A DNA stretch of 64,000 nucleotides from Rhodopseudomonas palustris (GTDB lineage Bacteria > Pseudomonadota > Alphaproteobacteria > Rhizobiales > Xanthobacteraceae), in assembly GCF_003591005.1 (NCBI RefSeq), contig NZ_QYYD01000018.1, positions 1 through 64,000 of the forward strand, read 5' to 3'. Position 1 is the stretch's first letter; each line of letters begins with the position of its first letter. Below, piece by piece: positions 9,804-51,633 of this stretch. The translations under genes were made by a program, and so were the position numbers. The notes beneath the pieces are model-generated. The model made no database searches and was not told where the DNA came from. It saw nothing but the letters and a program-made list of their open reading frames with translations.

Positions 9804-9892
9804 GTCGTGGCCGGGCTTGTCCCGGCCATCCACGCCTTTCTCGCAGCATCTGCCGCAAGGCGTGGATGTTCGGGACAAGCCCGGGCATGACG
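9804..9892. repeat. Interspersed 90-bp inverted-repeat element, copy 2
   Basis: This shares the outer arm core GGCCGGGCTTGTCCCGGCCA and the closing arm GGGACAAGCCCGGGCATGACG with the copies at 2522, 32704 and 51544. It is located in the 325-base gap after lolD. It is non-coding and strongly palindromic. Confidence 0.85.
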
Positions 9893-10066: not shown

Positions 10067-10330
10067 TCAGCCCCGCTGCCGCTGCGGCCGCCGCGGCTTC
10101 TTGCGCGGCTCGGGGCCCTTGTACCACGGGTTGGTCATGCAGTCGGCGGCGCGGCCGGAGGCGGACATCCGGCACTGTGCCATGGTGTCGTAGCTGCACT
10201 CGTCGTACCAGTCGTGATAGTTCAGATAGACCCGCAGGCAGACCGGATAGTCCCGCGCCTGCGCGGCCGGCGTGCCGACCAGTGTGATGGCGAGGGCGGC
10301 GAGCAGCCCGCTCAGCATCGTGGTACGCAT
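10067..10330 (-). CDS. DUF3551 family small secreted protein (second of tandem pair)
   Basis: The 87-residue protein has a signal peptide (cleavage near AAQA) and then the DUF3551 pattern: YPVCLRVY, YDEC, QCRMSASG and a late Cys followed by NPWY, giving four conserved cysteines likely to form disulfides in the periplasm. The C terminus is basic and Pro/Lys/Arg-rich. ATG at 10330 follows GGGAG with good spacing. A paralogue lies 29 bases upstream, suggesting a local duplication and co-transcription. The function of the family is unknown. Confidence 0.8.
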   Translation of the reverse strand: MRTTMLSGLLAALAITLVGTPAAQARDYPVCLRVYLNYHDWYDECSYDTMAQCRMSASGRAADCMTNPWYKGPEPRKKPRRPQRQRG

Positions 10331-10359
10331 CTTGAAGTCTCCCAAGAACCTGGCGCCGC

Positions 10360-10611
10360 TCAGCGCCCGCGATGGCGCCGCGCCGGTGCGCTCGGCGGCT
10401 GATACCATGGATTTGTGACGCACTGGCCGGCGATGCCGCTGGCTGATGGTCGGCACTGCTCGATCGAGACGTAGCGGCACTCGTCATAGCGCACCGGGCC
10501 ATAGACGCGCAGGCAGACCGGGTAGTTGTCGGTGGGCTGTGCCATGGCCGCAGAAGGCAGGGCGAGCGGCAGTACCAAGCCCGCCAGCAGATATATCGAA
10601 TGAACGCGCAT
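10360..10611 (-). CDS. DUF3551 family small secreted protein (first of tandem pair)
   Basis: The 83-residue protein has a signal peptide (LAGLVLPLALPSAAMA) and the same core as its neighbour: YPVCLRVY, YDECRY, QCRPSASG, C and NPWY. Four cysteines are conserved in position between the two copies while the tails differ. The start at 10611 has GGAGA upstream. It is the promoter-proximal member of the pair; the 240-base gap behind it also carries the divergent LexA-box promoter, which is too far away to be its own. The function is unknown. Confidence 0.78.
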   Translation of the reverse strand: MRVHSIYLLAGLVLPLALPSAAMAQPTDNYPVCLRVYGPVRYDECRYVSIEQCRPSASGIAGQCVTNPWYQPPSAPARRHRGR

Positions 10612-10788
10612 GTTCGTCTCCAGCTCGAGGCGGTGAGGCGAACGCGCTGACGACTCCCGCGTCGACTCTCCTTGGCCCGACCGCCAACCCGTGCGCCGTG
10701 TCGCCGTTCCCGTCAACGGTGGGAAGCGGGGACAACATCGGGGCGTTTACGTCTTGTTAGGCCTTCCGAACGCAGCGCGCCGATCCGC

Positions 10789-10830
10789 TTGACTCTAGAA
10801 CAAAAGAAGAACTATGTTCTGCATATGTTC
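10789..10830 (+). promoter_or_regulatory. SOS promoter with two LexA boxes
   Basis: Two alphaproteobacterial LexA sites are present: GAAC-N7-GAAC at 10798-10812 and GTTC-N7-GTTC at 10816-10830, arranged as a palindromic pair. They overlap a likely promoter (-35 TTGACT at 10789-10794, -10 TATGTT at 10813-10818, 18-base spacer). LexA binding here would block RNA polymerase directly. The first frame downstream is the 32-residue membrane peptide; dnaE begins 324 bases further on. Confidence 0.8.
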
Positions 10831-10853
10831 ACGAGGTCAGAGGGAGGCGGATG

Positions 10854-10952
10854 ATGTTGAAGGTTTTCATTCAGGAAGCAGCGGCGCTGACGTCCATCGT
10901 ACTGTTCATCGGCATGGTTGCGGTCTGGGCTCAGGTGTTGCCGCAGCTCTGA
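10854..10952 (+). CDS. SOS-controlled small membrane peptide (32 residues)
   Basis: ATG at 10854 (or 10851) follows GGGAGG at 10842-10847; the 6-base spacing favours 10854. The product begins MLKVFIQEAAALTSIVLFIG and continues as a single hydrophobic helix (about residues 8-27) with a short polar end, as expected for a one-pass inner-membrane peptide. It is the first gene after a promoter covered by two LexA boxes. SOS-induced peptides of this size include Caulobacter SidA, which inhibits division, and E. coli TisB, which depolarises the membrane. Sequence identity to either is not claimed. It is far shorter than usual annotation cut-offs. Confidence 0.7.
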   Translation: MLKVFIQEAAALTSIVLFIGMVAVWAQVLPQL

Positions 10953-11154
10953 GCTGGCGGCAGATCCCGCTCGCATGCCGGCGCTGTGGCAATAGCGGGG
11001 ACAAGGGCAGCGGCCGGCTTGCGCGGCCGCGTCCGGGGTATCACCATCGAGGGCGAGTCGGCTGTGCAGCGCACGCTGGCTGAGCACCTCCACCCCACAC
11101 ACTGCGAGACGGCCGTCACGGACCGCCGTCCCTCCGATCGAGAGCCGCCGCGCG

Positions 11155-14631
<3,477 letters not shown>

Positions 14632-39996: not shown

Positions 39997-40701
39997 TCAG
40001 TACTTGCGATACAGCCCGACCAGCTTGCCCTGGATGCGGACGCGATTGGGCGGCAGGATGCGGACCTCGTAGGCGGCGTTGGCGGGCTCCAGCGCGATCG
40101 AGGCGCCGCGGCGGCGGAAGCGCTTCAGCGTGGCTTCCTCCTCATCGATCAGCGCCACCACGATGTCGCCGGTGTCGGCGCTCTCGTTGCGCTGGATCAG
40201 CGCCATGTCGCCGTCGAGAATGCCGGCCTCGACCATTGAATCGCCGCGCACTTCCAGCGCGTAGTGCTCGCCGGCGCCGAGCATCTCGGGCGGCACGCTG
40301 ATGGTGTGGCTGCGGGTCTGCAGCGCTTCGATCGGCGTACCGGCGGCGATTCGGCCCATCACCGGCACGGCGACGTTGCGGTCGGTCTCGTGTTCGACCG
40401 GCTGCGGGCTGGGCGGGCGGACCTTGCCGAGATTGCCTTCGATCACGCTCGGGGTGAAGCCGCGTCGGCCGCCGGCATTGCCGCCGAGATCCGGCAGCTT
40501 GATCACTTCGATGGCGCGGGCGCGGTTGGGCAGGCGGCGGATGAAGCCGCGCTCTTCCAGAGCGGTGATCAGCCGGTGGATGCCCGATTTGGAGCGCAAA
40601 TCCAGCGCGTCCTTCATCTCGTCGAAGGAGGGCGGAACGCCGGCTTCCTTCAGCCGCTCGTTGATGAACTTCAGGAGCTCAAACTGTTTGCGCGTCAGCA
40701 T
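39997..40701 (-). CDS. lexA: SOS repressor LexA
   Basis: The 234-residue transcriptional repressor is cleaved on RecA activation. The N-terminal winged helix ([40 protein letters not shown]) binds DNA. The C-terminal S24 domain has the Ala-Gly cleavage site in GRIAAGTP, catalytic Ser155 (RGDSMVEAG) and Lys193 (ATLKRF). The linker is longer than in E. coli LexA (202 residues), usual for alphaproteobacteria. A LexA box lies 108 bases upstream, so it is probably autoregulated. moeA is upstream on the same strand, comEC is convergent. Confidence 0.97.
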
Positions 40702-40808
40702 CGACCATTCCCCAATCCGGCGACGATCGCCTGCGGTCGTTCATCACGCGAGGACCGCGAACAACGATGACCACATGAATCGAAACAAATCATGAACGAA
40801 CACTATCT

Positions 40809-40823
40809 GTTCGGCTTGTGTTC
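40809..40823 (-). promoter_or_regulatory. LexA box upstream of lexA
   Basis: GTTC-N7-GTTC (40809-40823), an exact alphaproteobacterial LexA consensus, lies in the 161-base gap between moeA and lexA. On the minus strand it falls between candidate elements TTGCGG (about -35) and TAGTGT (about -10), so LexA would block its own promoter. Confidence 0.82.
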
Positions 40824-44530: not shown

Positions 44531-45382
44531 ATGCTGAGCGGAGGCGGCCGCGCGGGTGGCAGGAAGAAGGTCGAGGAGGATCATGCCGGCGGCCACGGCT
44601 GGTTCGTGACTTTCGCCGATCTGATGGGCTTGCTCGTCAGCTTCTTCCTTGTGCTGGTGTCGTTCTCCACCCAGGACCTGCACAAGATGCAGATCGTCGC
44701 CGGCTCGATGCGCGACGCGTTCGGCGTGCAGCAGGAGTCGCGCTATTCGGGCGTGATCGAGACCGATGGCGTGCCGGTGCAGGGCAAGGTCCGCAGCAAG
44801 CTGAACGTGGCGCCTGATCAGTCCAGCGCGACGCCGAGCCAGCTCGATGCCGAGGCCGCGGAGCTCGCCTCCCGGACCAAAGCAGAGCGCGACTTCGCCT
44901 TGGCGTCGGCGTCGCTACGCCAGGCGTTGATGGACTCACCGGAGCTCGCCGAACTATCCAAGAACGTCGTGTTCGAGCAAACTCCAACCGGGCTCAATCT
45001 CGAGCTGACCGATCAGGACGGCCGCCCGATGTTTCCGGACGGCTCGGCGACGCCTTACGAGGCGGCGCGGCTGCTGATCGCGCGGCTGGCGGGACCATTG
45101 CGCGCCACCGCGCTGCGGATCTCGATCGTCGGTCACACCGCCACGGTGCCGGTCTCGGCGGGCGACGACTACGATGCGTTCGATCTGTCGACGAGCCGCG
45201 CCAATGCCGTGCGTCAGATTCTAAAGCGCGAGGGCCTCGCGTCAGACAGGGTGATGTCGGTGGCCGGCAAGGGCGACGGCGATCCGCTGTTTCCGGACGC
45301 CCCGACCATTGCTGCCAATCGTCGAGTCACGATCAGCCTGCTCCGCGAAAACCCGCCGCTGCCGGAGGATCTGCGACGCTGA
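44531..45382 (+). CDS. MotB-like protein with OmpA peptidoglycan-binding domain
   Basis: The 283-residue protein has one N-terminal membrane helix preceded by a plug-type sequence, with the proton-carrying Asp at position 30 (FVTFADLMGLLVSFFLVL). A long linker and a C-terminal OmpA/MotB domain (ISIVGHTATVPVS, LSTSRANAVRQIL) follow. MotB is the peptidoglycan-anchored stator subunit of the flagellar motor. No motA or other flagellar gene is in the window, so it is an orphan and may partner with a distant MotA or have another anchoring role. In OmpA-like domains the motif is often GHTD; here it is GHTA. Confidence 0.75.
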   Translation: MLSGGGRAGGRKKVEEDHAGGHGWFVTFADLMGLLVSFFLVLVSFSTQDLHKMQIVAGSMRDAFGVQQESRYSGVIETDGVPVQGKVRSKLNVAPDQSSATPSQLDAEAAELASRTKAERDFALASASLRQALMDSPELAELSKNVVFEQTPTGLNLELTDQDGRPMFPDGSATPYEAARLLIARLAGPLRATALRISIVGHTATVPVSAGDDYDAFDLSTSRANAVRQILKREGLASDRVMSVAGKGDGDPLFPDAPTIAANRRVTISLLRENPPLPEDLRR

Positions 45383-51543: not shown

Positions 51544-51633
51544 CGTCATGGCCGGGCTTGTCCCGGCCATCCACGCCTTCACCGTTGCGCCGGCCCAAAG
51601 GCGTGGATGCCCGGGACAAGCCCGGGCATGACG
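51544..51633. repeat. Interspersed 90-bp inverted-repeat element, copy 4
   Basis: This is the most symmetrical copy: arms GCCGGGCTTGTCCCGGCC and CCCGGGACAAGCCCGGGC flank ATCCACGCC/GGCGTGGAT. It is inserted between trpD and trpC, so a transcript across both genes must read through it. The other copies are at 2522, 9804 and 32704. Confidence 0.88.

Follow-up and report, generated by a model that had tools for sequence, protein, structure and literature searches.

A small membrane-peptide gene ahead of dnaE in Rhodopseudomonas palustris, predicted to be under LexA control, is a probable divergent orthologue of Caulobacter sidA

Judged by its position, control, size, and family-level similarity, a 32-codon open reading frame (ORF) directly upstream of dnaE in Rhodopseudomonas palustris is probably a divergent orthologue of sidA of Caulobacter. 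SidA (29 aa) is an SOS inhibitor that resides in the inner membrane and acts on FtsW (PMC4211646), and its gene is CCNA_02004 (PMC11034885). The ORF lies in the window analyzed here, a stretch of 64,000 nt (contig NZ_QYYD01000018.1, positions 1 to 64,000), and the evidence supports its being a small gene that precedes dnaE under predicted SOS (LexA) control. It is a real gene of a known kind that falls outside the range of NCBI's SidA model. The features on which the analysis draws are as follows.

10789..10818, plus strand: sigma-70-type promoter (-35 TTGACT at 10789-10794, 18-nt spacer, -10 TATGTT at 10813-10818)
10798..10812, plus strand: LexA box 1, GAACAAAAGAAGAAC, inside the spacer between -35 and -10; kept in relatives
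10816..10830, minus strand: LexA box 2, GAACATATGCAGAAC on the minus strand, reading GTTCTGCATATGTTC forward; overlaps the -10 and the expected start site
10839..10847, plus strand: ribosome binding site AGAGGGAGG, recognized by sequence, 6 nt ahead of the ATG at 10854
10854..10952, plus strand: putative SidA-like one-helix peptide of 32 aa, MLKVFIQEAAALTSIVLFIGMVAVWAQVLPQL; 32 codons plus a TGA stop
11155..14631, plus strand: dnaE, replicative DNA polymerase III alpha (PF07733 match); conserved neighbor 3' of the peptide gene
39997..40701, minus strand: lexA, the presumed repressor of the peptide gene (PF01726 and PF00717)
40783..40823, minus strand: LexA box pair upstream of lexA, one exact and one with one mismatch; motif control within the window

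Direct reading of positions 10789 to 10830 reveals two exact GAAC-N7-GAAC boxes lying over one promoter with 3 nt between them; this is the known alphaproteobacterial LexA motif (PMC3323433, PMC12700426). The promoter is the sole promoter-like site found by a scan of 10600-11260, and the TTGAC of its -35 element is visible in most of the 30 loci from relatives. The first-pass annotation had described two exact, oppositely oriented boxes 3 bases apart over a credible promoter, followed by a first downstream frame with a strong ribosome site that encodes a single-helix peptide of 32 residues; the sequence and the promoter scan confirm the former, and the sequence and its hydropathy bear out the latter. 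Four exact boxes occur in the whole window, against 1.45 expected from shuffling, and at this chance rate a single exact box carries little weight. The same rate is what would have to be invoked if the peptide were a chance ORF under a chance LexA box, a reading to which we assign a negligible probability, as it is already refuted by the conservation of the peptide, the box, and the dnaE linkage and by the selection acting on the frame. Box, promoter, and peptide all recur in relatives, that is, beyond chance; the pair of boxes in opposite orientation is found in 44/58 closer loci, with the same 18-nt offset in 41 of those 44. The fourth exact match in the window (44951-44965) sits within a 283-codon frame and is probably fortuitous. 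Two DUF3551 genes (PF12071; window 10067-10716) immediately precede the SOS promoter, on the opposite (minus) strand.

The predicted peptide has its best 17-residue hydropathy stretch at 2.25, and a best stretch of at least 1.75 is seen in all 72 distinct peptides of 27-36 aa collected from the order. At 32 residues and, by hydropathy only, one transmembrane helix, it agrees with the roughly 29 residues and single helix of SidA. An alternative in-frame ATG, at 10851, leaves a gap of just 3 nt to the ribosome site, and none of the other 29 loci compared has it. Searches of Pfam, NCBIfam, and PADLOC retrieved no family for the window peptide. The substitution pattern of the ORF is nevertheless coding-like: across 45 distinct coding sequences from 47 loci, the nonsynonymous/synonymous ratio is 0.318 in frame versus 1.16 and 3.1 when the frame is shifted, a pattern that points to purifying selection at the amino acid level. 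Column entropy is 0.67 within the ORF versus 1.83-1.88 on the flanks, the latter being unaligned.

In a search of 61 genomes, the peptide was recovered from 31 of the 37 genomes of the same family, comprising its own genome, 15/15 of the same genus, and 15/21 other members of the family, all at E values of 3.5e-4 or better; the remaining 6 of the 37 gave no convincing match. At a loose threshold (E<=10), 39/61 genomes were hit, the extra ones weakly except for one genome of another family at 4.6e-6. An order-wide search of 397 genomes with a 20-peptide profile yielded 104 matches in 102 genomes at E<=0.1. Thirty of these loci were supplied with the search. From the other 74 we retrieved 40, selecting on score and, in most cases, on a short open frame, with the box and dnaE ignored; the 34 unfetched matches are mostly weaker or in long frames. 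Together with 30 loci from the 61-genome search, these 70 give a set of 100, or 98 distinct places once two duplicates are removed.

Neither the box nor dnaE was used in finding the order peptides, and both recur at their loci. In 89/98 distinct places (57/58 closer and 32/40 weak loci), the 130 nt upstream contain an exact LexA box, versus 2/749 control pieces; when one mismatch is allowed, the figures are 58/58 closer and 36/40 weak loci versus 53/749 control pieces. Among the 8 of 40 weak loci without an exact box, four have a box with one mismatch; the other four, which have none, come from a single genus whose peptides are 27 aa long. In these last (L086, L091, L102, and L108), the peptide is shortened and the LexA boxes have decayed (GAACAAAACAAATAC), with dnaE still adjacent. 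Downstream, on the same strand, dnaE begins within 800 nt in 96/98 places (58/58 closer, 38/40 weak), the exceptions being L080, which has an exact box, and L076, a second copy in one genome, which lacks it. L076 (G113:C13:3082-8165) belongs to a genome of the same family and has no exact box within 130 nt and no dnaE in the fetched stretch. On the basis of the box and dnaE counts, we take the weaker order-wide profile matches to be the same gene. A search of relatives for the boxes and the peptide, as the first-pass annotation had proposed, thus found both conserved (31/37 family genomes; exact box in 57/58 closer loci), and the placement that it had noted beside the replicative polymerase gene holds as well, the dnaE linkage being conserved in relatives.

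The constancy of dnaE downstream raises the question of whether the ORF is a leader whose translation tunes the SOS expression of dnaE, the peptide itself being incidental. Its presence in 96/98 places, the failure of the 10600-11260 scan to find any terminator-like site between the peptide ORF and dnaE in the window, and the listing of C. crescentus dnaE as SOS regulated (PMC3323433) would all fit such a role. We consider it very unlikely, given the signs of purifying selection on the amino acid sequence, the variable start-to-start distance between the peptide gene and dnaE (109-773 nt among the loci), and the fact that the occupant of this slot in Caulobacter is a known effector. A separate feature of the window's dnaE frame is a short stretch at 14452-14496, from residue 1100, ATPSSPAQGRSGGEG, which looks like an in-frame repeat insertion near the C terminus.

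The identity of the Caulobacter occupant emerges from the Caulobacteraceae, the family whose DnaN comes nearest to the presumed C. crescentus protein (76-77%); two other families first taken for it were dropped on comparison of 30 DnaN proteins. A peptide search in this family matched 92/119 genomes at E<=0.1, many of them weakly. In every one of the 20 matches fetched, the peptide is 29 aa long and its start precedes the N-terminal motif of dnaE by 136-197 nt; an exact LexA box occurs in the scanned stretch of 8/20 only. A DNA-pattern scan of named genomes, using a pattern that specifies a large part of codons 1-22, gave 53 loci labeled as Caulobacter, Phenylobacterium, or higher taxa, among them C. 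vibrioides OR37, T5M6, and DSM 9893. The peptide is 29 aa long in 53/53, dnaE comes next in 51/53 (the other two are at a contig edge), and an exact box is present in 32/53, with OR37 and DSM 9893 having one and T5M6 lacking it. Two 29-aa peptides score 70 and 72 bits against the NCBIfam model NF033228, "cell division inhibitor SidA" (cut-off, 35), the 72-bit score belonging to the T5M6 peptide; genome G495 has a peptide of the 29-aa type that scores just 20.5 bits. The adjacency of sidA and dnaE is thus shown by the DNA of the C. vibrioides strains rather than taken from any paper: a literature search, with most subscription journals outside its reach, returned no report of SidA outside Caulobacter and its relatives and no link between sidA and dnaE. 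Because Caulobacter sidA also lies directly upstream of dnaE, the dnaE neighborhood appears to be an inherited feature of the locus.

This bears on published assignments of LexA sites. A 2012 comparative-genomic study counts dnaE among the SOS-regulated genes of C. crescentus and recovers it in its own alphaproteobacterial set (PMC3323433); the term sidA is absent from the main text of that paper. On the evidence gathered here, the operator is first of all that of the small gene. LexA sites that have been assigned to dnaE, in Caulobacter as well as in other alphaproteobacteria, probably serve this gene and would be reassigned to it.

The similarity of the window peptide to SidA is best seen at the family level. 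A profile of 72 order peptides, from which the second copy (L076) and two loci with no clear start were left out, gave 3.5-18.0 bits with 11 SidA-type peptides, 7 of which scored above all 3974 membrane-segment decoys (maximum, 10.6); the other 4/11 were not above the best decoys. In the reverse direction, a profile of 39 SidA-type peptides scored 43/72 order peptides higher than any of 1090 decoys (maximum, 3.7), with 29/72 not above the best of them. The window peptide scores 4.3 bits on this SidA profile, above all 1090 decoys, yet 24/1000 of its own shuffles equal it. Direct profile-profile comparison gave an E value of 0.001 and a probability of 21. Members of a mixed alignment touch NF033228 in 7/40 cases, and two relatives from the same family, scanned singly, reach 13 bits on the SidA model, their only match. 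The window peptide itself has no match to NF033228 even at E<=10; with the 35-bit cut-off failed, it is not to be filed as SidA in the strict NCBI sense. Its having gone unrecognized as a SidA is attributable to its being tiny and divergent, and the case for orthology rests on family-level similarity together with synteny, as the window peptide alone scores weakly.

Set side by side, the window gene and SidA of Caulobacter crescentus/vibrioides (NF033228, CCNA_02004) share LexA boxes upstream, a one-helix peptide of about 30 residues, a basic and then an acidic residue near the N terminus, and a position directly upstream of dnaE on the same strand. They differ in length (32 aa in the window versus 29 in SidA), in the failure of the window peptide to match NCBI's SidA model, and in the core motif, which is FVWMMC in SidA and LFxGMxxxWAQ in the window family, so that the contact surface may differ. 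This divergence between the Hyphomicrobiales and Caulobacter lineages leaves room for a SidA orthologue that in Hyphomicrobiales has been retargeted from FtsW to another envelope target, such as FtsN or an elongation SEDS protein; FtsN is used by DidA, the second inhibitor of Caulobacter (PMC4211646). The similar size, single helix, same predicted LexA control, and same locus, along with the modeling of SidA on TM7 of FtsW (PMC13396833, where the models are said not to be high confidence), make such retargeting unlikely.

The peptide had also been proposed to be an SOS peptide of either the SidA or the TisB kind. The SidA part of this proposal stands, the genomic slot being that of Caulobacter sidA before dnaE, and for the same reason SidA rather than TisB is the right comparison. 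TisB of E. coli is an SOS peptide of the depolarizing type. A TisB-like product would be SOS induced, insert into the membrane, dissipate its potential, and favor dormancy; a small hydrophobic peptide behind LexA boxes is compatible with this, and E. coli DinQ offers a precedent for an SOS-controlled toxic single-helix peptide (PMC3567139). The window peptide, in contrast, has only two charged residues, K3 and E8, and no cationic face, and both the locus and the profiles point to SidA, which renders a depolarizing role quite improbable.

Other DNA-damage inhibitors of division offer more distant parallels. DidA of C. crescentus is likewise a small single-pass inhibitor induced by DNA damage and acting on the late divisome (PMC4211646), but it has 71 aa and is driven by DriD, not LexA. 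YneA of Bacillus, SosA of Staphylococcus, and ChiZ of Mycobacterium are by description DNA-damage-induced membrane inhibitors of late division, with the YneA helix contacting TM7 of FtsW (PMC13396833); they are described as larger, and YneA and ChiZ carry a LysM domain, for which the window peptide has no room. SulA (PF03846) does the same physiological job in E. coli but is an FtsZ inhibitor of another family. A match to it was found in 0/61 genomes of the group, the window's own included, and among 14 control genomes, E. coli alone was positive.

With sidA orthology as the preferred reading, a mechanism can be conceived in which LexA bound at the two promoter-covering boxes would hold the gene off, and RecA-driven cleavage of LexA upon DNA damage would release it, as suggested by conservation of the motif. 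The 32-aa product would then insert in the inner membrane as a single helix, probably with its N terminus inside, given K3 near that end and the uncharged C-terminal end. There it might delay septation by keeping the FtsW/FtsI/FtsN complex inactive, as reported for Caulobacter SidA, to which FtsW mutants are resistant in that organism (PMC13396833). As no terminator-like site intervenes, the SOS transcript may continue into dnaE.

We also examined the distribution of the gene across the class. A first class-wide profile search with the peptide was rejected as a guide, having given only 13 weak matches besides its own genome, mostly inside long frames; the wider distribution would thus have been missed without an approach anchored on dnaE. 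Of 289 genomes searched for dnaE, 221 matched at E<=1e-30, and 80 upstream fragments were taken from the matches listed, three of them from the order to which the window belongs (two of the three positive) and another two picked as Caulobacteraceae (both positive, with peptides of 29 and 31 aa). The rule, set after a first look at the fragments, called for an exact box followed by a one-helix frame of 20-60 aa within 650 nt of the fragment's dnaE end. It was satisfied in 18/80 fragments versus 1/80 on the opposite strand, 0/80 distally, 0/298 dnaN-locus pieces, and 0 in 20 shuffled sets. The exact-box and ORF rule found nothing in the other 62/80, which implies that the module is widespread and not universal, or often beyond the rule. 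A relaxed-box version was no better (16/80 versus 0 opposite, 2 distal, and 1/298). A mixed profile matched 19/289 genomes of the class sample, the window's own included; among the others, 14 have listed dnaE places, and the peptide is beside dnaE in 12/14, seven of these 12 being profile rows or near copies and five not.

A broader and more tentative proposal, which we hold at somewhat less than an even chance, is that sidA-dnaE is an ancestral alphaproteobacterial SOS module. Its single LexA promoter would raise the division inhibitor and the replicative polymerase jointly, and the module would provide the DNA-damage checkpoint on division that has been missing in rhizobia and related bacteria, where it would have gone unseen because the peptide has only about 30 residues. 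The conserved dnaE-linked SidA locus is a candidate for how rhizobia and other Hyphomicrobiales halt division after DNA damage, and the dnaE position furnishes a rule for finding a gene too short and fast evolving for sequence search. It also raises the question of what has kept the genes for the replicative polymerase and a putative division brake side by side. One idea is that SEP6 or SEP16 of S. meliloti (PMC10117765) could be the same peptide.

In the window, 29 kb separate the peptide gene from lexA and its box pair (39997-40823). The corresponding C. crescentus genes are CC1902 (lexA) and CC1926 (dnaE) (PMC1839093), and their proximity suggests that a rough lexA-dnaE neighborhood may be old. 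The window further contains an inverted-repeat-like stretch at 9811-9884, the 26-base left arm of which is repeated exactly at 51552-51577. This stretch resembles the dispersed repeats of this bacterial family.
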